Shown in pieces: positions 7,282 to 29,322 of a DNA stretch of 64,000 nucleotides. The stretch is taken from the NCBI GenBank assembly GCA_003142255.1, contig PLLO01000006.1, forward strand, positions 1 through 64,000, read 5' to 3'. The translations under genes were made by a program, and so were the position numbers. Numbering within the stretch: position 1 is the stretch's first letter; each line of letters begins with the position of its first letter. The notes beneath the pieces are model-generated. The model had not been told where the DNA came from, ran no database searches, and saw nothing but the letters and a program-made list of their open reading frames with translations. This DNA is from Bacteroidales bacterium. Lineage in GTDB: Bacteria; Bacteroidota; Bacteroidia; Bacteroidales; VadinHA17.

Positions 7282-7674
7282 TAGCTGGCCAATCAGGGCA
7301 AAGAAGCAGAGAGATATCATATGTGAAGCACTAACCCCGGGCATATAGCGGCTACCGGTTACCGGCAACCGTAAGAATAAAAGAAGATCCCGGTTGGAGC
7401 TTATTGATTCCTCGCTTTGGCCCGCACTCTTCATGCCGTTCGGAAGCTGACGCCTGATGCCCGTCGCCTGTAATACATTATAAATAATACATATCCATCC
7501 GCTCGTCAAAAAAACTTGACTCGTTTCCCTTTTTGTTCTAACTTTCCTTTCAGTTTATTTTCGTTTCAGCAATTAATTGTTAAACCAAAGGCTATTTGAC
7601 ATTACACCCTAATGCCTTAAAACCGTAACGCCTTAATGCCGTAATGCCTTTTGAGCCTTTAAGCCTCTCTTCCC
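7282..7674. other. Intergenic region with REP-like relic and promoter
   Basis: No gene is visible. ACTAACCCCGGGC near 7330-7342 matches the outer part of the REP elements at 22.3-23.6 kb and looks like a decayed copy. The promoter at 7516-7546 follows. The leader just before the next gene holds short repeats of the type CCTTAATGCCGTAATGCC at about 7610-7650. Confidence 0.5.
7516..7546 (+). promoter_or_regulatory. Shared-type promoter for repeat protein C
   Basis: TTGAC at 7516-7520 and TAACTTTC at 7539-7546 have the same spacing and near-identical surroundings to the promoter at 1021-1051. Confidence 0.6.
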
Positions 7675-9969
7675 ATGAAAACAAAACTCCTCTTCTGCTT
7701 TTTACTTTTTCCTTTCGTCTTTTTCCTTTCGCCTTGCACCGCTCAGGTGCCAATGGGCTTCAACTACCAGGCCATAGCGCGCGATGGTTCCGGGACTATT
7801 ATTGCCAATCAGTCAATGCCGGTAGAAATCACTCTCCAGACCTCTCTTACCGGCGGCACAATAATCTATAAGGAATTATTTTCTTCTATCAGCTCAAACC
7901 AGTTCGGGCTGATCACTCTTGTTGTAGGAACCGGGACGCAGACCGGGGGTTCGGCAGCTTCATTTTCAGCAATTGACTGGAGTGCACAGACACTCTTCCT
8001 GAAAACGGCAGTCCAGTACCCGGGTTTGACCTGGACAACCATGGGAACCAGCCAGGTGTGGGCTGTCCCATATTCGCTGGTGGCAAAGAATATTGCTCCA
8101 CTCTCAAAGCTTGGGATAACAGGAACCACCTCCGACATGGAAGAGGCACTGTTTGAAGTGAAGAACCATGCCGGGCAGACAGTCTTTGCAGTCTATAATG
8201 AAGGGATCAGGGCTTATGTAGGGAACGGTAATGCAAAAGGAGTAAAGGGAGGATTTTCTGTAGGAGGCTATGATGCTACAAAAGGCACTACAGTATATGA
8301 CCTTCTTACATTAAGTACTGATAGTGCCAGGCTCTATTTTGACAGCAAGCCTACATTAAAGGGTGCAAAGGGAGGTTTCTCCGTCGGTGGATATGACATG
8401 ACAAAAGATGGCACATCTGTCCGGAATTATTTTGATATAAGTGCCGATAGCATCAGAGCATATATTGATACCAGCAAGGTTAAAGGTGCTAAAGGAGGTT
8501 TTGCCGTTGGAGGATTTGATGCGACTAAAGGTTATACCAGACTTTTTATGGGAATGACGCCCAAGAATTATTTCATTGGGGAGGGAAGCGGGTCAAATAA
8601 TACATCAGGAATTTATAATTCATTTATCGGATATCAGACAGGTCTGTACAATACATCAGGAGCAAATAATGCTTTCGTTGGATATCAGAGCGGATACAAA
8701 AATAATGTTGGGAACAATAATCTTTTCCTGGGTTACCAAAGTGGCTACAGCAACACCGGAGGCAGTTTCAACTCATTCCTCGGTTATAAAGCAGGCTATT
8801 CAAATACAACTGGAACCTCTAATACATTCCTTGGCAGTTATACAGGAACAGGCAATATCGGGGGGAATGACAACACATTTCTTGGATTCAACGCTGGTTT
8901 TAAAAATACAACAGGGAATGCCAATAACTTCATCGGTACCCGAAGCGGATTAAATAACCTTGGGGGCAGCAATAATGTTTTTCTTGGAACAGAAAGCGGA
9001 TATTCAAATTCAGCCGGAAATTTTAATATTATGATCGGATATCAGGCTGGTTATTCGAACATATCCGGGAGTTACAACAATTTTCTGGGATACCAGGCAG
9101 GGAAGGCAAATTCCGGAGGCCAGTATAATACCATCATAGGTTATCAGGCCGGGGTATCCAACACAGATGGCGGACAAAACGTCTTTCTTGGACATACTGC
9201 AGGATACAACAACCAAACCGGCGATGACAATGTGTTTATCGGTACCCTTGCTGGTCATGATAACACCACGGGAAAGCAGAATGTCTTTCTTGGTACATTG
9301 TCGGGGAATAAAAATAATTCACTGGGGAATGTTTTTATAGGGTGGGCTGCCGGTATGAATAATACGTCAGGGCAGGAGAATGTATTCCTGGGACAGGGTG
9401 CAGGCATGAATAATACAACATTTGGAGGTAATACTTTTATCGGTGCAAGTGCCGGTACATATTTTAGTACTGGTGGCAACAACACTTTTGTTGGTTTTTA
9501 TGCCGGCTGGGGAAACAGTTCAGGAGCATCTGGAAGTGTGAATGTTATTGTCGGTGAGACATCCGGATCAGCATTGACCTCAGGTTGGGCCAATACCTTT
9601 ATTGGTTCCAGGTCGGGGTATACAATTTCTTCCGGCAGCGAGAATGTTTTCCTTGGCCAGGCAGCAGGATATAACAGCAATGGAACAAAAAACGTGTTTA
9701 TAGGTTACAATGCCGGATTTGGAGAGACCATGGGAAATGAAAAACTGTATATTGAAAACTCGAATGCCGACAGCAATAATGCTCTTATTTACGGGGAATT
9801 TGACAATGATATTATTAAGCTTAACGGAACTGTAACTATCCGTGATGTGCTTAAATTGAAACCCAGAACGACTGCTCCGTCTTCCGCATCTGAAGGAGAT
9901 ATATATTATAATTCAACGACTCATAAACTGATGGTATTTGATGGCACTTCGTGGATGGCATGCTGGTAG
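7675..9969 (+). CDS. Secreted repeat protein C: FLGYQAG-type repeats, no S74 domain
   Basis: This 764-residue protein has the same signal peptide and N-terminal region as A and B and three 42-residue GGFxVGG[YF]D modules (about 183-290). About 23 repeats of 17 residues follow (about 300-695), of the same type as in B but with their own sequence. It differs from its neighbours at the end. After the repeats and a short LYIENS...ALIYGEFDN stretch it closes with about 40 residues containing KLKPRTTAPSSASEGDIYYN. There is no S74 chaperone domain and no coiled coil. The stop is followed directly by the promoter of protein D, so the missing end is not simply displaced downstream. How this member folds or is anchored is unknown. 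Confidence 0.8.
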   Translation: MKTKLLFCFLLFPFVFFLSPCTAQVPMGFNYQAIARDGSGTIIANQSMPVEITLQTSLTGGTIIYKELFSSISSNQFGLITLVVGTGTQTGGSAASFSAIDWSAQTLFLKTAVQYPGLTWTTMGTSQVWAVPYSLVAKNIAPLSKLGITGTTSDMEEALFEVKNHAGQTVFAVYNEGIRAYVGNGNAKGVKGGFSVGGYDATKGTTVYDLLTLSTDSARLYFDSKPTLKGAKGGFSVGGYDMTKDGTSVRNYFDISADSIRAYIDTSKVKGAKGGFAVGGFDATKGYTRLFMGMTPKNYFIGEGSGSNNTSGIYNSFIGYQTGLYNTSGANNAFVGYQSGYKNNVGNNNLFLGYQSGYSNTGGSFNSFLGYKAGYSNTTGTSNTFLGSYTGTGNIGGNDNTFLGFNAGFKNTTGNANNFIGTRSGLNNLGGSNNVFLGTESGYSNSAGNFNIMIGYQAGYSNISGSYNNFLGYQAGKANSGGQYNTIIGYQAGVSNTDGGQNVFLGHTAGYNNQTGDDNVFIGTLAGHDNTTGKQNVFLGTLSGNKNNSLGNVFIGWAAGMNNTSGQENVFLGQGAGMNNTTFGGNTFIGASAGTYFSTGGNNTFVGFYAGWGNSSGASGSVNVIVGETSGSALTSGWANTFIGSRSGYTISSGSENVFLGQAAGYNSNGTKNVFIGYNAGFGETMGNEKLYIENSNADSNNALIYGEFDNDIIKLNGTVTIRDVLKLKPRTTAPSSASEGDIYYNSTTHKLMVFDGTSWMACW

Positions 9970-22263: not shown

Positions 22264-22342
22264 AAATGTAAATAAGCTGTTCGGGTTGTTCTCTTAAGGA
22301 ATAATCATTTATATGTCCATTTGTCCAATTTCCCTGGGCATT

Positions 22343-22741
22343 GGGCTAAAGCCCATTAATCATAGCTGACCGCCCATCCCGGACTGAAGTCCGGGGTTAG
22401 TGCGGGAGATATAATCATGTGTTTATGGTATGCGGCTGCATATTATTCTGAGGGCTAAAGCCCATAATATGTAGTTGACCGCCCACCCCGGACTGAAGTC
22501 CGGGGTTAATGGTGCCCCGTTATGCATTTAAGATGTACTTCTTTCATTTATTTTGAGGGCTAAAGCCCATAATTTATAGTTAGCTGGTCACCCCGGACTG
22601 AAGTCCGGGGTGAGTTCGATTCTACACGACTCAAATATTGTTCATTATATTGATTAACCCCGGCTTCAGCCCGAAAAAAATATGGGTAGAGAAGAGAATG
22701 TTATGATGTGATCCACTAACCCCGGGCTTCAGCCCGGGGTT
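22343..22741 (+). repeat. REP array, left part (three units plus single palindromes)
   Basis: Three units pair a GGGCTAAAGCCC palindrome (22343-22354, 22452-22463, 22557-22568) with a CCCGGACTGAAGTCCGGG palindrome about 22-35 bases later (centres near 22387, 22496 and 22601). Spacing between units is 109 and 105 bases. A further palindrome, CCCCGGGCTTCAGCCCGGGG, lies at 22720-22739. The DNA between the pairs is also similar. These are the type of repeats that RAYT transposases recognise. Confidence 0.85.
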
Positions 22742-22761
22742 GAAGGTGAAGAAATGAAGCG

Positions 22762-22773
22762 GGGCTTTAGCCC
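22762..22773 (-). repeat. REP core palindrome overlapping the RAYT stop codon
   Basis: The plus strand reads GGGCTTTAGCCC, the reverse complement of the core GGGCTAAAGCCC. Read on the RAYT strand, GGC TAA supplies the final Gly-stop context of the gene. Confidence 0.8.
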
Positions 22774-23201
22774 TCACCATTGGTGAAGCCACTCCCGGAA
22801 ATAAGTTCATTATATTCCTCCTCCCACGATTTTCCCCGATGATGCTCTTCCTGAGTCTTTATATATTCTCTTGTTTCATTAAGATGAGAACTACTGACTG
22901 ATGCTCCATAATAATCTTCAGCCCATTCAAATTTATAACCTGTAAGCTTGTTCTTGTTGACCCAGAAAGACGACTCCCCTTTTATAAGTTGAATCACTTT
23001 CGATAATGACTGGTCGGGATCCAGCGATAGCAGGCAGTGCAGGTGCTCTCTGTGGCCGTTTATCGAGTCGATATAGATTCCTTTCTCCCTTGCATTTTCT
23101 TTTATGTGGCTAATGAGGTTGGTTCTGATCTCGGGATTCAGAAAGGGGACTCTGTTTTTTGTTCCCCAGACACAGTGAAGCCAGTTTTTAACGTACGACA
23201 T
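22767..23201 (-). CDS. REP-associated tyrosine transposase (RAYT, IS200-like Y1 family)
   Basis: The 144-residue protein has the single-tyrosine HUH nuclease layout: the metal-binding HLH at residues 53-55 (in GHREHLHCLL) and the candidate nucleophile Tyr113 in NETREYI. WAEDYYGASVSSSHL precedes it, as in RAYTs. These enzymes nick and join single strands at hairpins formed by REP elements. Both flanks carry REP palindromes here: six units, three on each side. The stop codon TAA lies inside a GGGCTAAAGCCC palindrome (plus-strand 22762-22773). There is no second transposase gene such as TnpB. A domesticated, non-mobile role is the usual view for such genes (established for the family). Activity here is inferred from intact motifs. 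Confidence 0.88.
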   Translation of the reverse strand: MSYVKNWLHCVWGTKNRVPFLNPEIRTNLISHIKENAREKGIYIDSINGHREHLHCLLSLDPDQSLSKVIQLIKGESSFWVNKNKLTGYKFEWAEDYYGASVSSSHLNETREYIKTQEEHHRGKSWEEEYNELISGSGFTNGEG

Positions 23202-23216
23202 AACAGATGGTTTTGA

Positions 23217-23500
23217 GGGCTAAAGCCCATTATTTATAGGTAGCCGGTTACCCCGGACTGAAGTCCAGGGTTAGTGGGTGCCAGGATAATAAAGCGTTTA
23301 AGATGTACCGTTTCCATTTCTTTTTGAGGGCTAAAGCCCATTATTTATAGTTAGCCGGTCACCCCGGACTGAAGTCCGGGGTTAATGGGTGCCAGGATAA
23401 TAAAGCGTTTAAGATGTACCGTTTCCATTTCTTTTTGAGGGCTAAAGCCCATTATTTATAGTTAGCCGGTCACCCTGGACTGAAGTCCCGGGTTAGTGGG
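23217..23500 (+). repeat. REP array, right part: 111-base tandem repeats
   Basis: GGGCTAAAGCCC recurs at 23217-23228, 23328-23339 and 23439-23450, an exact period of 111 bases. Each is followed by a CCCCGGACTGAAGTCCGGGG-like palindrome, imperfect in the first and third copies. The linker with AAGCGTTTAAGATGTACCG is nearly identical in the two full intervals and is also related to the left array. Confidence 0.85.
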
Positions 23501-23573
23501 TGCCAGGAAGATAATAAGCCCCGGATGTTGGCTGTTGTTTCCGCCATTGGACTGAAGACCGAGGTTTATAAAG

Positions 23574-23626
23574 AACCCCGGGCTGTAGCTTTGCGGAATC
23601 GGTGGCCGGCAAGCAAGCCCGGGGTT
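23574..23626. repeat. Long inverted repeat of REP type
   Basis: AACCCCGGGCT at 23574-23584 faces AGCCCGGGGTT at 23616-23626, so a hairpin with a loop of about 31 bases can form. The loop carries TTGCGGAATCGGT, which is related to sequence after the gene ending at 19549. Confidence 0.6.
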
Positions 23627-23800: not shown

Positions 23801-23995
23801 TTAAGGTATATTGAGCAAAGTATAGTCCATGTATTTATCATAACACCAATCAGTAAATTTGTCCCAAACCCATTCAGCTGTGTCACAGATTGCATTCCAA
23901 GCTGAACGAAGGGCATCTCCTAATTTACCGCCGCCATTAATTTGAATCATTTCTTCATAGTCTAGCTCTGTTACATTGTACCTCTTTATTTCCAT
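23801..23995 (-). CDS. Double-glycine leader peptide precursor 1 (bacteriocin-like)
   Basis: The 64-residue precursor has a 22-residue leader. Val8, Leu11, Met16 and Ile19 stand at -15, -12, -7 and -4 relative to Gly21-Gly22. That is the pattern C39 peptidases recognise. A third Gly (23) follows. Cleavage after Gly22 would release 42 residues, starting GKLG and containing an amphipathic Trp-rich part with WN and AEWVWD. It has two Cys (residues 37 and 52), so a disulfide is possible. The leader and first half match those of precursor 2 at 25373. Precursor, exporter and fusion protein together suggest a secreted peptide, possibly antimicrobial or a signal; activity is inferred. No modification enzyme is visible nearby. 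Confidence 0.78.
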   Translation of the reverse strand: MEIKRYNVTELDYEEMIQINGGGKLGDALRSAWNAICDTAEWVWDKFTDWCYDKYMDYTLLNIP

Positions 23996-24137
23996 GGCAT
24001 TTAAATTTAAAATTATTACACTAACACAAATCTTAATTATTACTTTTTTGTTTCCTTTTCGGACTAAAATTAAATTGTCATCGTCCGGAGAAAAAGAATT
24101 ATAAGGATTTTCTAATTAAATATTTGCCCCTTTATTA

Positions 24138-25301
24138 CTAGTTTGTTGTATTTAAATTGTTTGGAAAATACATGCTTATTTTTTTCTCAAAATCTGAATT
24201 ATATTTAGAATTCATCTGAACAAGAGTTGAATCCTCTTTAAGAGTTTGTGCCCCAACTTCAAAAATAGGTTCTTTATCTAATTTTATGAAAATGAGTTCG
24301 GAATGATTCTCCCATTGCTTTTCAGGATTATTTTCAGGGAAGGAGAATTTGTAATTCCAATCTAATCTTGATAAGATACCATTTTTATCAAAAAACTGAA
24401 AATATGAATATTGATAATAATACCTTTGCGCATTCTTGGGTCTATTTTCTGCTAATCTGCTGTTAATCATCATTTCAGGATCTAAAAAAGCTTCAACTCT
24501 AAGTATTTTCCCATTAGCTTTATTTATTATTACCCGTCCACTTTTCAAAAGATATCTTTTTCTGGGTTTATAATCCAATCGGGGATTAAAACTTACTATA
24601 TGTATTGAATCTTTTTCTTCCTGATAAGTGAAATACAATAGTTTTTCTGTCTCTTTTGACGCACTGACTAGGAACATATTAATTGGTGCGAATGAAGCTG
24701 GTAGACTAAAACCAGGAATTAACTTCTGTTTGAATAATGGATTTCTATATACTTTAATATTTTCCAGATTATTCTTAATAATCCCACCATGACTGGGGCT
24801 AGATAAAAATTTCAAAACAAATGTAATTTCAGCTTCTGCACTTGCCACCAAAGTGTCACAGTAAATCAACCAATCTCTTCTGTAGCATTTGTAGAACATT
24901 GGTGTATATAATGAACTAAATGAACTATCAACTGCCCTGTCGACTATTAATTTTGCATTTTCTGGGCTTATTATTATGGGATTTAATTCAATAGGTAGTT
25001 CCTCCAATTCAATGACCTTCTTGTTTTTTATTTTATTATAAGCAATCTTTATTGTTTTATAGGCCAAATGGGAGATTTGAATAGAATCATTATTTGAAAG
25101 TGCAATTGAAAAATGACCATCTTGATCAGTTTTTTCAATTATGTTCTTGCCGATTACTTTTATATAAGCAAATGGGATGCACTCTTTTGATTTAGAATCA
25201 ATTATTTGATATTTACTAAATTGTGCATAAATATTTGTGAAAGCATGAATTACAACAAGAAATATTACAAATTCAGATCGCTTAAGTGATGGATGATTCA
25301 T
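24138..25301 (-). CDS. Exported carboxypeptidase-regulatory-like domain protein in the peptide locus
   Basis: I use the ATG at 25301 (MNHPSLKRSEF); an in-frame ATG at 25325 is also open but would leave only a few bases after the terminator of the preceding gene. The product (about 387 residues) has a signal peptide (about 8-27). It then has a carboxypeptidase regulatory-like domain of about 75 residues: IIDSKSKECIPFAYIKV and TDQDGHFSIAL. The rest (about 90-387) is rich in aromatic and charged residues and resembles the DUF5686-type proteins that follow such domains, but lacks the usual long C-terminal barrel. It lies between the two peptide genes on the same strand. A role in self-protection or in handling the peptide is possible but unproven. 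Confidence 0.6.
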   Translation of the reverse strand: MNHPSLKRSEFVIFLVVIHAFTNIYAQFSKYQIIDSKSKECIPFAYIKVIGKNIIEKTDQDGHFSIALSNNDSIQISHLAYKTIKIAYNKIKNKKVIELEELPIELNPIIISPENAKLIVDRAVDSSFSSLYTPMFYKCYRRDWLIYCDTLVASAEAEITFVLKFLSSPSHGGIIKNNLENIKVYRNPLFKQKLIPGFSLPASFAPINMFLVSASKETEKLLYFTYQEEKDSIHIVSFNPRLDYKPRKRYLLKSGRVIINKANGKILRVEAFLDPEMMINSRLAENRPKNAQRYYYQYSYFQFFDKNGILSRLDWNYKFSFPENNPEKQWENHSELIFIKLDKEPIFEVGAQTLKEDSTLVQMNSKYNSDFEKKISMYFPNNLNTTN

Positions 25302-25332
25302 GGCTCTATATTTATTAAAAAGCATGCTTGAT

Positions 25333-25362
25333 AAAAAAAGGACAGTACATTTACTGTCCTTT
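25333..25362 (-). terminator. Intrinsic terminator after peptide precursor 2
   Basis: An 11-base stem (AAAGGACAGTA at 25337-25347 with TACTGTCCTTT at 25352-25362) encloses a four-base loop. On the minus strand it is followed by a run of T residues. It ends the transcript that carries the exporter genes and precursor 2, so the gene at 24138 needs its own start or read-through. Confidence 0.85.
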
Positions 25363-25372
25363 TAATTTGATT

Positions 25373-25576
25373 TCAACTTTTATTACCAAGGTTAACGTTG
25401 ACTCCATTAATAACTTCAATGGATACGGAAATTTTTACATTATCCCAAATCCATTCAGCAGCATCCTTTATACCATTCCAGACATCAGCAAGAAATTCAC
25501 CAAGCTTTCCACCACCGTTAACCATGAGCTGTTCCTGGGTGGTTAGTTCCCTGACAGAAAATTTTTCGATTTCCAT
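25373..25576 (-). CDS. Double-glycine leader peptide precursor 2 (bacteriocin-like)
   Basis: The 67-residue precursor has the same leader layout as precursor 1: Val8, Leu11 and Val19 at -15, -12 and -4 of Gly21-Gly22. The -7 position is Gln16 rather than a hydrophobic residue. Cleavage after Gly22 would release 45 residues starting GKLG, with WN and AEWIWD in the same register as in precursor 1. It has no Cys. The C-terminal half (about 46-67) is β-branched and Asn-rich and differs fully from precursor 1, which is aromatic and charged there. The gene follows the HTH gene by 60 bases and the exporter genes, and ends in a strong terminator, so it is likely co-transcribed with them. Confidence 0.78.
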   Translation of the reverse strand: MEIEKFSVRELTTQEQLMVNGGGKLGEFLADVWNGIKDAAEWIWDNVKISVSIEVINGVNVNLGNKS

Positions 25577-25636
25577 GACAATAAAAATTAAATAAGTATA
25601 GAAAATTTACCCCGTTTTTTTGACAGGCCCGGGGTT

Positions 25637-25978
25637 TTAGCACTGCAACGAAACCTTACTAATTTCGTTCACCATTGTCCGGAAAAAAAGTATTCCGGGA
25701 AGAATAAAACCACCTGTGTATTTTTTTTCTTCCTGGCAGGTCATCGGCTTCAAATTGCAGGTGATCTGTATATCAAATGGCTCCTTGTAATAAAATGTCT
25801 TGACCGATTTTGAGTAAACAATCGGAGCGCCTCGCGACCTTAGTTCATCTATAAGCTCATATAGGCTTGTGCGGCTTACACCCAGCTGACTGGCAAACTC
25901 TTCCGGGGTGCCAGTGGCCCGCTGTGTGACCAGTTTATGCATACGGCTGATGCGATCGAGATATTCAAAGACTTTCAT
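25637..25978 (-). CDS. Small HTH protein of the peptide-export locus
   Basis: The 113-residue product starts with a winged HTH-like motif: TGTPEEFASQLGVSRTSLYELIDELRSRG (about 22-50), of the HTH_11/DeoR-like kind. A β-wing follows (about 51-75). The C-terminal 35 residues have Cys and a hydrophobic ILPGILFF stretch. I know of similar small HTH proteins next to double-glycine peptide genes in Bacteroidota, which fits a regulator of the locus (inference from context). It lies 12 bases after the ABC exporter gene on the same strand. Confidence 0.7.
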   Translation of the reverse strand: MKVFEYLDRISRMHKLVTQRATGTPEEFASQLGVSRTSLYELIDELRSRGAPIVYSKSVKTFYYKEPFDIQITCNLKPMTCQEEKKYTGGFILPGILFFRTMVNEISKVSLQC

Positions 25979-25990
25979 ATTAGGATGTAT

Positions 25991-28156
25991 TTATGTTTTT
26001 ACTTCTTCAAATTCAATAGCCTGTTGCATCCACATTTTCCTGAAATGTCCTTCCATAGCTGACAATTCTGAAAATGTTCCTTCCTGTATTACAGTTCCAT
26101 TGTCAAGGACTATGATCCTGTCGGCAAGACTAATTGTAGAAAGCCTGTGTGCAATTACTATTACAGTCTTTCTTTCGTCCCTCAGCAGCTTCAGGGCATT
26201 CTGAACAAATGATTCAGCAAATGAATCAAGCGATGAGGTTGCCTCATCAAGGATAAGAACTTCAGGATTCCGGTAAAGCGCACGGGCAATTGCGATCCTC
26301 TGCTTCTGCCCTCCGGATAAAGTCGCGCCATTCTCACCAATATAGGTTTTGAAACCGTTTGGGAGGCTCTCTATAAATTTTATCATTCCAAGCTTCTCAC
26401 AAACAGCCAGGATTTCTCCCATATCCGGATTTATTTCTCCTATAGCTATATTATTGATCACGTCTCCTGCAAAAAGATCAATTTTTTGCGGAACAACAGA
26501 AACCACCTTACGCAAGGACTTATTTGTAAAATGCTGAAGATCATAACCACCTACCCTTATATGTCCATCCTGCAGCGGGTACAAATTTTGAAGGAGCGAG
26601 GCAAGAGTGGTCTTTCCTGATCCGCTTTCTCCAACTACTGCTGTTATTTCCCCTTTGTGAATCCTGATGTCAAGGGAATTAAAAACTTCAACCCGGGTTC
26701 CATATCTGAATTTTACATTTTCAAAACATATATCATTTATCATCTCTGGTCTGAGTTCAATTTTATCCTTTTCATCATCAATCTCAAGGTCAAATATCTC
26801 AAACAACCTGTCAGCTGCAATTTTTGCATCCTGCAGAGTACGGTTAAACCCGATAATGCTGGTTACAGGTCCTGTATAATATCCAACGATGGAATAAAAC
26901 GACAGTAATTCCCCGGGCGTGATCTGAGTTTTCATAACGAAGCCGGCTCCCGCCCATAAGACAATAAGTGTTATCAGCTGTGTTACAAGTGCCCCGGAGC
27001 TGGAGGAAAACATTGAATTTAAACCCGATTTATAAATTGTCTCAAGAAGTCCTACGAATCTGGTCTCTGTTCTGAAATTTGAATACTCTTCCAGGTTGAA
27101 TCGCTTGATTGTTCCAGCTGAATTGAGTGATTCGACAAGCTGTGCTTCCAGGTCAGCAGCCCTTTCCATTACTTTTCGCTGGACTTTCCTGTTAAAGCGA
27201 TTCGAGACGTAATAAATTAAAATGTAAAAAGGAACTACAACCAGCATTATTACAGCAAGCTTCCAGAAAAAGGTGAACATAAGAATGAAAGACACGATCA
27301 GGATAAATACATTAAGTATCAGATTAATTGAAACGTCATTAATGAATACTCTTATTTTAACTGCATCGCTGATCCTCGAAATTATTTCCCCTGTCCTCAT
27401 ATTATCGAAAAATGACTGAGGAAGCTTCAAAAGATGCTGATAATAACCAAGTATTAGTGATGCGTCAATTTTTTGTCCTGTCTTAAGAATAAAAAGCGAT
27501 TGGAAAAGGCCAAGGAGCAACCTTAAAAGGATGATCAAAACCATTGCGATACCCATAAGGTTCAGGAGATTCATATTACCTCCAGGGATGACATGATCAA
27601 TGAGCCGACCAACGTAAATAGACATTGAGAGACCCAGCACAGAAAATATAATTGCGCCGACAAGAGCCTGAAACAGGATCCTGCTGTTTGGCTTGATTAG
27701 TTGCCAAAGACGAACAGATAATGATGCTTTTTCATCTTTCACGCTAAACTTTTCACCTGGGGCAATAAGAATCAGAACCCCGGTCCACTCTTTTCTGAAT
27801 TGCTCATGAGGAATTTTATGAATATTCCCGTCTTCCGGATCCATTATCTGAATAAACTTGTTAGTTGCCCTTAAAATCACAACATAGTGAGTCAGAATTC
27901 CATTTACTATAAGATGAGCAATAGCAGGCTTTGGTATTTTGAACAAGCTATCCCATTCACCCTTGACCCCTTTTGCCAGGAATCCCATTTTTGCTGAAGC
28001 TTCGATCAAACCAAGGACATTAGTTCCTTTTCGGTCAGTTCCCGCGAACTGCCGTATCCTTGAAACCGGCAATCTGACATTATACCATGCAGCAACAGAT
28101 GCAAGACAAGCGGCTCCGCAATCAGTAATATCCCTTTGTTTGACTTTGATATTCAT
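25991..28156 (-). CDS. C39-peptidase ABC exporter for double-glycine peptides
   Basis: The 721-residue protein has three domains. An N-terminal C39 peptidase (about 1-130) keeps its catalytic set: Cys13 in DITDCGAACL, a His in THYVV and an Asp in IMDPEDG. A six-helix ABC membrane domain spans about 160-430. The ATPase (about 480-715) has Walker A GESGSGKTT, signature LSGGQKQRIAIAR and Walker B LILDEATSSLD. Such exporters cut the leader after the double glycine and pump the core peptide out, with a fusion protein. The gene overlaps the membrane fusion gene by four bases (ATGA). The two peptides encoded downstream are the likely substrates. Confidence 0.93.
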   Translation of the reverse strand: MNIKVKQRDITDCGAACLASVAAWYNVRLPVSRIRQFAGTDRKGTNVLGLIEASAKMGFLAKGVKGEWDSLFKIPKPAIAHLIVNGILTHYVVILRATNKFIQIMDPEDGNIHKIPHEQFRKEWTGVLILIAPGEKFSVKDEKASLSVRLWQLIKPNSRILFQALVGAIIFSVLGLSMSIYVGRLIDHVIPGGNMNLLNLMGIAMVLIILLRLLLGLFQSLFILKTGQKIDASLILGYYQHLLKLPQSFFDNMRTGEIISRISDAVKIRVFINDVSINLILNVFILIVSFILMFTFFWKLAVIMLVVVPFYILIYYVSNRFNRKVQRKVMERAADLEAQLVESLNSAGTIKRFNLEEYSNFRTETRFVGLLETIYKSGLNSMFSSSSGALVTQLITLIVLWAGAGFVMKTQITPGELLSFYSIVGYYTGPVTSIIGFNRTLQDAKIAADRLFEIFDLEIDDEKDKIELRPEMINDICFENVKFRYGTRVEVFNSLDIRIHKGEITAVVGESGSGKTTLASLLQNLYPLQDGHIRVGGYDLQHFTNKSLRKVVSVVPQKIDLFAGDVINNIAIGEINPDMGEILAVCEKLGMIKFIESLPNGFKTYIGENGATLSGGQKQRIAIARALYRNPEVLILDEATSSLDSFAESFVQNALKLLRDERKTVIVIAHRLSTISLADRIIVLDNGTVIQEGTFSELSAMEGHFRKMWMQQAIEFEEVKT

Positions 28157-29322
28157 CCTTTATCATTGAAATAAGGATTGACCCATTTGTCAACCTTGTC
28201 AAATAGCAAATTGAATAATGAGCGCCGGTTCACAATAATTCTTGCATTAAGGCTCATCCCTTTCCTGATTTCTGCATTCACTCCGTTTTTAAGAGAGAGA
28301 AAAGTTTTTTCAGGCTTGCATTTAATTCTGAAGTAGGCATCCTCGCCGTTTTCAACAATAATATCATCAGAGATATCAATTATGCTGGCATCAAGCAGGC
28401 CCCATTCGTTATAGTTAAAAGCATCGACCTGGATGCGGACTTTCTGACCTGAATTAATTAATCCTATATTATCGGGCTTGATGAAGCATGTAGCAACCAT
28501 TTCTCCGGAAGGTGATATTTCTGCAACTTGTTGATTACTTCCTATAATTGCGCCTTCCTGTATCTCCGAACTGCGGATTATTTCTCCGCTGACAGGAGCC
28601 AGGACAATCCTGTTTCTCAGTTGTTCGAGGCAACCTTCAAGCTCCGCTTGCAATATGGCAGCGTCATTTATTCTTTGCATGAGATCGGATTGCCACAGAC
28701 TCTTATTATAAAATAGTATCTGATCAAGGTTTTTCTCTTCGGTCTGGAAGATGAACATGCTATTTTCAAATTCAGTATCTGCAATAAGATCCTGGTCATG
28801 AAGAATGACATTCCTCTCATGTTCTGTCTTGGATTTTCGATATTTCTGTGATTGAATTTCAATTGAATTCTTCATTTTTGAGAATTCAGCTTGATATTTT
28901 TTTGTTTGAAAATTCTTAACGTCAAAACTAAAAAGTCCCGAATCCGGCAAAGTGAGCTTTTCAAGATCTGAAATTGCCCGGTTGTTTTCAAGGATTCTCT
29001 TCTGAAGGGTCCTTTTTTGAGCCTTCGAGGCTTCCGATTCTATTATTAATAAGGTATCTCCTTTCTCTATGGCAAGGCCGTTCTTTATTGAGGTGAAGAT
29101 AACTTTCCCCTGGTAGGGGGAATAGATTGCTTGTTTCTCAATATTTGATTGAAAATATCCTCTTGCCTGGACAGTAATATCGACATAAACAAATGGAAGT
29201 ACCCCAATACCCAGGATTACCATCACTAAAATAGTCCAATAAATTATCTGGCTTCGCGAGGTAACCCTGATAAGATAACTTTCCAAAGTACAATTAGTCA
29301 ATGTCGACGGGATCAGATCCAT
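28153..29322 (-). CDS. HlyD-type membrane fusion protein of the peptide exporter
   Basis: I place the start at the ATG at 29322 (MDLIPSTLTN), because this matches the usual beginning of such proteins in Bacteroidota. The frame is open to an ATG at 29439, which would add 39 unusual residues. The product (about 389 residues) has one N-terminal membrane helix (about 28-48). A half-lipoyl motif, IYSPYQGKV, a coiled-coil hairpin (about 95-215), a second lipoyl half (IVLAPVSGEI) and a β-barrel follow. It would bridge the ABC exporter to an outer-membrane channel, which is not encoded here. It is the first gene of the exporter operon. Confidence 0.88.
   Translation of the reverse strand: MDLIPSTLTNCTLESYLIRVTSRSQIIYWTILVMVILGIGVLPFVYVDITVQARGYFQSNIEKQAIYSPYQGKVIFTSIKNGLAIEKGDTLLIIESEASKAQKRTLQKRILENNRAISDLEKLTLPDSGLFSFDVKNFQTKKYQAEFSKMKNSIEIQSQKYRKSKTEHERNVILHDQDLIADTEFENSMFIFQTEEKNLDQILFYNKSLWQSDLMQRINDAAILQAELEGCLEQLRNRIVLAPVSGEIIRSSEIQEGAIIGSNQQVAEISPSGEMVATCFIKPDNIGLINSGQKVRIQVDAFNYNEWGLLDASIIDISDDIIVENGEDAYFRIKCKPEKTFLSLKNGVNAEIRKGMSLNARIIVNRRSLFNLLFDKVDKWVNPYFNDKG

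Follow-up and report, generated by a model that had tools for sequence, protein, structure and literature searches.

Little is known, to our knowledge, about the control of C39-exported peptides in Bacteroidota, and a peptide-export locus in a Bacteroidales bacterium of the VadinHA17 lineage raises the question of how a cell might match peptide production to export. The locus occupies positions 23801–29322 of a 64,000-nucleotide stretch (hereafter the window; assembly GCA_003142255.1, contig PLLO01000006.1, positions 1 to 64,000) and comprises the six genes listed in the initial annotation, all on the minus strand: a HlyD-type periplasmic adaptor (28153–29322), a C39-peptidase ATP-binding cassette (ABC) exporter (25991–28156), a helix-turn-helix (HTH) protein (25637–25978), two short precursors with double-glycine (GG) leaders (25373–25576 and 23801–23995), and an exported carboxypeptidase-regulatory-like protein (24138–25301). 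In line with that annotation, the locus serves C39-dependent export of leader peptides, and the genes checked include no modification enzyme; by type it is a putative unmodified, class II-like bacteriocin locus. The answer proposed here turns on the HTH protein, which ends in the same kind of export-and-cut signal as the exported peptides and so suggests a coupling between peptide output and the cell's own exporter. That transcription and export are wired together in such a locus via a leader-tagged regulator is, taken as a whole chain, a proposal on which our confidence is evenly balanced; contact between the HTH protein and the exporter, considered alone, is in our judgment fairly probable.

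The HTH protein (P0003) had been correctly placed but labeled simply a small HTH protein, a description that is incomplete: the protein has a double-glycine leader of its own, and the 3′ end of its gene overlaps the element that precedes precursor 1. The sequence matches PF08279 (HTH_11) at 25.0 bits, equal to the cut-off, and an AlphaFold2 (AF2) model computed from six sequences displays a winged helix-turn-helix (wHTH; block means of 86–93 at residues 11–70), followed by a low-confidence short helix (residues 81–87) and a disordered tail from residue 89 (below 50 for residues 89–113). Foldseek returned TM1602, NiaR, and BirA as the best matches of this model, all weak (E 0.02–0.05). The model thus assigns the protein a wHTH fold, and we regard it as a putative regulator that would bind the precursor element. 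Matches of the HTH profile to PDB sequences were set aside, those to antibodies being taken as chance and those to NolR and Aca7 being weak. The C-terminus divides after the GG into ...LKPMTCQEEKKYTGG and FILPGILFFRTMVNEISKVSLQC, with the residues up to the GG written MTCQEEKKYTGG and 23 residues following. The leader-like stretch corresponds to residues 76–90 (LKPMTCQEEKKYTGG, encoded at 25709–25753 on the minus strand) and is supported by the invariant G90, a leader profile, and genomic linkage.

HTH profile searches gave matches in 31 of 395 genomes across the phylum and, in further orders, in 22 of 346 (8 already found) and 22 of 128 (10 already found). Loci from these searches, from exporter relatives, and from Echinicola make up a linkage table of 67 entries, with G509 (a 360-residue frame) left out. 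The exporter lies on the same strand in 40 loci (class A), and 37 of these carry [GA]G after the wing, including the doubtful G1167, whose GG stands at the very end only, after YGNG where others carry the motif. The three exceptions are a protein cut by a contig end (G095), one that stops just before the motif (G662), and one without the usual C-terminus (G735). No exporter is in view in 20 loci (class B), six of which have the motif: GG precursors adjoin G657 (which also has an exporter remnant), G694, and G1145; a short GG open reading frame (ORF) adjoins G863; G653 lies at a contig end; and G838 displays a chance AG. Other arrangements (class C) account for seven loci, three with the motif. 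As far as the contigs show, the leader is nearly confined to exporter-linked or precursor-linked family members. For complete HTH proteins, after removal of two contig-cut class A rows (G095 and G006) and two 347-residue class B proteins, the motif is found in 36 of 38 exporter-linked members (G1167 doubtful) versus 6 of 18 small members with no exporter in view (Fisher p 2.3e-6, relatedness not corrected for). Since the family is related by descent, this result is a description more than a test.

The leader persists across considerable divergence, most exporter-linked HTH proteins being ~30% identical to that of the window. Two lines of evidence weigh more than the linkage counts, namely the constancy of the glycine pair and the match to a leader profile. 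Comparison of 15 HTH proteins across the phylum (22–68% identical to that of the window) leaves a single invariant column in the C-terminal half, the last glycine, and S35, which is invariant, and Y64, which is nearly so, are among the best-conserved helix-turn-helix and wing residues. Across 43 members, the glycine pair (38 GG, 5 AG) is encoded by 16 codon combinations, which argues that the constraint acts on the protein. A 13-position leader profile was constructed from 76 neighboring precursor-like ORFs with the GG excluded; 44 HTH segments scored a mean of 1.86 and a median of 4.39. The corresponding means were −12.57 at 531 GG sites taken from long ORFs within these loci (p 1.6e-22) and −8.45 when the HTH segments themselves were shuffled (sd 0.63, 200 rounds). 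The window's own segment, at 4.0 against the null mean of −12.57, scores as a leader. Because the site chosen was the first [GA]G past the wing, certain HTH segments are out of register, and the 76 precursor ORFs include spurious ones; each of these errors would be expected to weaken the signal. These data bear on the possibility that the locus is an ordinary bacteriocin cassette in which the C-terminal GG of the regulator is structural, or a relic of precursor fusion, and makes no contact with the exporter. Such a cassette would accommodate the loosely conserved leader part, and the relatedness of family members means that the linkage counts overstate independence, but the GG is kept despite high synonymous divergence and ~30% protein identity, and the profile match reaches beyond it. 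Moreover, 12 of the 18 small HTH proteins with no exporter in view lack the motif, and four of the six that have it adjoin GG peptides (G657, G694, G863, G1145). We consider an ordinary cassette unlikely.

A second connection runs through the DNA that encodes the tail. Of the HTH-[GA]G genes, 37 are followed by 300 nt of DNA or more, and in 36 of them a GG-leader-like ORF starts no further than 400 nt downstream, under a loose criterion for precursors (an ORF of 38–100 residues with [GA]G at about residues 14–40); the exporter and adaptor are placed before, after, or around the HTH gene, varying by family. In the window, cis element 1 (25577–25708, minus strand, with its core at 25673–25694) consists of the tail-coding end of the HTH gene and the stretch before precursor 1. 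Over six genomes of the genus, the HTH body and the leader show uncorrected synonymous differences (pS) of 0.70 and 0.78, respectively, and the final 21 codons show 0.32 (0.22 when the window sequence is excluded). The tail-coding DNA and the following stretch also recur without an HTH gene, with nine copies retrieved from 7 of 42 loci: L028 (98% over 116 bp), L175 (95% over 165), L107 (94% over 136), L103 (84% over 165 and 85% over 52), L125 (82% over 34), L113 (80% over 119 and 74% over 125), and L111 (74% over 158). Eight of the other loci gave only other matches, mostly the repeat against itself, and 27 gave none. For eight of the nine copies, a GG-leader ORF begins inside the copy or at most 163 nt past it, and the ninth stands before a 32-residue ORF without GG. 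Recurrence of the tail DNA before other precursors indicates that the HTH coding frame extends into what looks like a control element of the precursors.

Several HTH genes end early. The gene in L110 has a stop and that in L028 a frameshift right after the GG, both keeping the leader and the GG, and the gene in L114 has a stop before the GG; in all three, similarity to the DNA of relatives continues past the stop or frameshift. The NHLP and Nif11 precursor families provide a precedent for long enzyme-derived leaders, and by analogy the HTH protein might be viewed as a long-leader precursor itself, its wHTH an old regulator turned leader and its tail of 10–39 residues exported, perhaps as a pheromone. 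The GG does end a folded domain adjoining a C39 exporter, and the tails appear conserved within the genus; this conservation, however, is at the DNA level (pS 0.32), the same DNA recurs without the HTH frame in several loci, tail length and frame vary (as in L028 and L110), and parts of the DNA-binding half remain conserved. A long-leader precursor is therefore an improbable description of the protein. The tail as a conserved pheromone was likewise rejected: tails align within the genus, but the codon analysis and the repeated elements argue otherwise.

The element recurs within the window as well, a feature absent from the initial annotation. Two core patterns were used, one from the two window sites themselves and one from relatives, with the latter serving for significance. 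The pattern from relatives hits the 64-kb window twice only, at 24082–24101 and 25676–25695, before precursors 2 and 1, respectively, with three mismatches each (up to three allowed; expected number 0.01; two matches in 0 of 100 shuffles). The former site overlaps cis element 2 (24079–24100, minus strand), a core upstream of precursor 2. The regulator is accordingly linked, at the level of sequence, to the precursors by the shared element and to the exporter by the leader. Three candidate modes of action are considered for the element, namely operator, promoter, and RNA structure. A short hairpin, ACCCCG...CGGGGT (25609–25635, minus strand), lies directly 3′ of the HTH stop and is kept in relatives of the genus, where one pair is changed on both sides; near-perfect palindromes with matched center changes occur in the genus, and G–U pairs are also compatible with RNA. 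Of 12 loci scanned, 9 have a CACTG...CAGTG repeat with few mismatches at the 3′ end of the HTH gene. A Bacteroidota −7 promoter box (TAnnTTTG) is a candidate reason for the tail motif common to members of family f142. The idea of one palindromic operator common to every clade is not supported, as the inverted repeats vary from clade to clade and that of the window does not reach significance.

A mechanism may be outlined from these links. Following established C39 biochemistry, the exporter would cut both precursors after the GG and export two amphipathic cores, while the winged-helix protein would control the precursor genes via an element that starts inside its own 3′ end and has its core repeated before precursor 2. 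The cut site would lie close to the point where the coding sequence enters the control element of the cargo. Given that the HTH protein ends in a double-glycine leader plus tail, the peptidase domain could bind it and would probably cut off the tail; when precursors are scarce, this domain would engage the leader of the regulator, with or without cutting, and activity at the element would change. Most plausibly, the regulator would be captured or trimmed by an exporter that is free and working, and displaced when precursors abound, such that precursor output would follow export capacity. Exporter binding, cleavage, DNA binding, and the sign of regulation are the steps that we infer. Where this could be examined, the tail lacks conservation at the peptide level, which favors docking or trimming over the export of a signal. 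A broader formulation, in which a widespread Bacteroidota transcription-factor family bears a C-terminal C39 leader and the exporter is the sensor that sets cargo transcription by reading this tag, is advanced tentatively, with slightly less than even confidence.

The leader-like C-terminus might also make the HTH protein a membrane-tethered or inhibitory leader mimic that blocks the peptidase when precursor is absent, with the wHTH possibly serving as a bulk plug and transcription not its job. This role is very doubtful, given that helix-turn-helix and wing residues are among the best conserved (S35 and Y64) and that the HTH gene stands just before a GG-leader-like ORF in 36 of 37 cases, overlapping the control element where visible.

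Several observations weigh against a leader-tagged regulator acting through the shared element. On the protein side, members of the HTH family are related and hence are not independent points; in the leader profile, 9 of the 44 HTH segments fall under −4, some via misregistration; the leader part beyond the GG is loosely conserved (pN, the nonsynonymous counterpart of pS, is 0.26 versus 0.12 in the HTH body); and AF2 confidence in the leader helix is low, with a mean of ~52 over residues 81–90. Positions −7 and −4 of double-glycine leaders follow a rule of hydrophobic residues, and those of the window's clade are often polar, where elsewhere they are usually hydrophobic. On the DNA side, a second copy of the element was found in a minority of loci only (7 of 42), the inverted repeat over the 3′ end of the window HTH gene scores 7 against a shuffle mean of 6.1 and maximum of 8, inverted repeats outdo all 30 shuffles in only 7 of 42 loci, and the repeats could be RNA hairpins instead of an operator. 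Among exporter relatives, G059 (L032) shows no HTH gene, G071 (L038) shows none within a 6.3-kb contig that does hold GG precursors, and the HTH tail on plasmid pAT7, described below, is not followed by a precursor.

The exporter matches PF03412 (E 1.4e-31) and, at 522.0 bits, falls slightly below the cut-off of TIGR01193 (523.85). Its nearest solved relative by sequence is 4ry2, an "ABC-type bacteriocin transporter" (PCAT1; E 6.9e-157). With a C39 domain, an ABC membrane domain, and an ATPase domain in a single chain, it is a peptidase-containing ABC transporter (PCAT). Q7, C13, H90, and D106 are all present; consistent with the 4ry2 alignment, these are the catalytic Gln/Cys/His/Asp of the C39 domain, as first annotated. 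The exporter is thereby predicted to cut after the GG and to export the product. The adaptor matches PF13437 (E 2.6e-15) and TIGR01843 (E 4.1e-37, below its cut-off), and its N-terminal start, MDLIP, is also found in L028. The same genome encodes a second ABC exporter (G000:C19:243219-245372) that matches the window exporter (P0002) from residue 5 onward at 32% identity, and a short ORF with a leader-like RGG (L040:3045-3185) lies in the stretch examined with it.

Precursor 1 (P0004) has a 22-residue leader, MEIEKFSVRELTTQEQLMVNGG, and a 45-residue core; precursor 2 (P0006) has a 22-residue leader, MEIKRYNVTELDYEEMIQINGG, and a 42-residue core with two cysteines. The two are paralogs, 41% identical overall, with the leader and the first half of the core, which displays GKLGxxLxxxWNxIxDxAEWxWD, common to both. 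As helices, both cores are amphipathic over their first 24 residues (only 0.1% and 0.4% of 2000 shuffles were equally high), and the core charges are −2 and −3. The leaders aligned with C39-substrate leaders of other loci, as would be expected from the initial annotation, with weak single-sequence E values (best leader match 0.005). Its failure to recognize the cores was borne out: a profile of both precursors gave only short weak matches, in 16 other genomes among 393 of the order, the best of which (E 0.0017) is a leader match. No further precursor copies were found in the window's own genome. Against curated class IIb models, precursor 1 has no match and precursor 2 solely NF038034 (E 0.01, 16 bits versus a cut-off of 37). 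The window cores are thus orphans in the genomes searched, and antibacterial activity as unmodified peptides is a candidate function.

The annotation further described the product as probably an unmodified peptide pair. The absence of a modification enzyme from the genes checked agrees with an unmodified product. That it is a pair is plausible, given that a different set of two precursors, one with a DWDNF(K/E)xG core and one with a FAY(D/R)xG core, recurs jointly in four loci of distant Bacteroidota (L026, L038, L107, and L199). This recurrence suggests a real two-peptide bacteriocin family, and the L199 pair member passes TIGR03949 (class IIb bacteriocin) at 23.7 bits versus a cut-off of 21.5.

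The carboxypeptidase-regulatory-like protein (P0005, 24138–25301, minus strand; an alternative upstream ATG extends the start to 25325) matches CarbopepD_reg_2 (E 4.3e-9) and is an immunity or envelope candidate. A full-length homologue in the precursor-rich locus L199 (29% over 343 aa, E 7e-46) makes it a recurrent partner. Within the rest of the genus (61 genomes), 9 genomes gave matches, all partial and to the first part of the protein only, and a comparison with plasmids gave no match. A single-sequence AF2 model has a mean pLDDT of 31.6, too low to be of use. In L199, two CarbopepD_reg_2 proteins (451-1809 and 7333-8487), one below the Pfam cut-off, lie amid several GG precursors, and such proteins may be standing partners of these loci. 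CPBP/Abi-type (Rce1-like, PF02517) membrane proteins, which have a role as bacteriocin immunity, occur near precursors in L026, L027, L028, and L199; none was seen among the window genes checked.

Beyond the locus, an IS200-like transposase gene (22767–23201, minus strand, within 22330–23589) shows a weak match, below cut-off, to REP-associated tyrosine transposases and sits amid 74-nt repeats, six copies in all, that contain the palindromes GGACTGAAGTCC and GGGCTAAAGCCC. An empty-site comparison based on trpS scanned the flanks of 29 of 56 matches in other genomes, which did not reveal the far side. An Rfam search gave no match at gathering scores.

The cassette was also followed through relatives of the exporter. 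Matches at or below 1e-120 were found in 14 of 98 genomes, including the window's own (57 others of the genus and 40 of the order were searched); the 13 non-window relatives are 45–95% identical, two of them partial, a recurrence beyond what chance would give. The HTH gene lies beside the exporter in 10 of the 14, with the G035 and G034 contigs ending too early. Short GG precursors were seen beside the exporter in 5 of the 13 (G044, G009, G042, G005, and G071) and also in Echinicola arenosa; most other contigs end too early to show precursors, and G059, in full view, shows none. The gene order in L026, L027, and L028 is HlyD, exporter, HTH, two to three short GG precursors with unrelated cores, and membrane proteins of the CPBP/Abi type.

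Plasmids carry related genes. The 15-kb Aureibacter tunicatorum plasmid pAT7 (L203, NZ_AP025312.1) encodes an HTH, TolC, HlyD, and C39-ABC cassette and four GG peptides. Its HTH protein ends in ...SATDMYHINGG and 17 further residues; HTH-NGG, TolC, HlyD, and C39-ABC run in one direction, whereas three of the GG peptides face the opposite way and the fourth follows the exporter. The plasmid thus supplies a named, annotated example of a leader-tagged HTH protein at an exporter, and an exception to the usual order of HTH gene and precursor. The motif is missing from HTH relatives carried by two Bacteroides plasmids, where conjugation genes adjoin, and by a Persicobacter plasmid; no exporter is annotated in those stretches, for which the gene table is incomplete. 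These plasmid relatives come from the 4 plasmid records examined out of 8. The named strains with the cassette, Echinicola arenosa CAU 1574 and Aureibacter tunicatorum NBRC 107587, make the idea testable.

A regulator with the substrate tag of the exporter would explain production matched to export without a separate sensor kinase. If true, this would be a new use of the double-glycine leader and would constitute export-coupled gene control for peptide exporters, by docking or trimming. The HTH-GG signature also offers a simple marker for further peptide loci with unrecognized cores and points to a DNA element that may drive them. No literature description of a regulator with a double-glycine leader was found among open-licence PMC papers.

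Known systems share parts of this arrangement. PCAT bacteriocin export, as represented by the exporter of PDB 4ry2, has the same domain order, catalytic residues, and double-glycine substrates, whereas in the window locus the regulator also bears a leader. For class IIb bacteriocins (lactobin A/cerein 7B, TIGR03949), the precursor from L199 passes the curated cut-off and the window precursors reach none. NHLP/Nif11 long-leader precursors likewise combine a folded leader domain, with GG at its end, and a neighboring C39 exporter, but the leader domain of the window is a wHTH (HTH_11) rather than related to nitrile hydratase alpha or Nif11, and its tail is without peptide-level conservation in the genus tested, displaying instead DNA-level constraint and recurrence without the frame. 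FlgM resembles the proposed regulator in carrying the signal of an exporter and controlling the cargo of that exporter; FlgM is itself exported, by a type III system, whereas in the window only the tail could leave.

Bacteroidetocins (PMC6671954) resemble the window locus in their Bacteroidota origin, double-glycine precursor, C39-type ABC exporter, and lack of an obvious immunity gene. Their four-gene region contains a protein with five transmembrane segments (5-TM) and a thiol oxidoreductase, neither of which is among the window locus genes, which instead include HlyD, HTH, and CarbopepD_reg_2 proteins. A survey of ribosomally synthesized and post-translationally modified peptides (RiPPs) in Bacteroidales reports an HTH gene in one cluster and, in the text available, mentions no such leader feature (PMC10352776). 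The nearest published idea that we met concerns HetC of Nostoc, for which the authors put forward that a cleaved PCAT substrate leaves an N-terminal part acting on a transcriptional regulator (PMC10986499). They identified no such substrate, whereas the candidate in the window is encoded beside the exporter itself.

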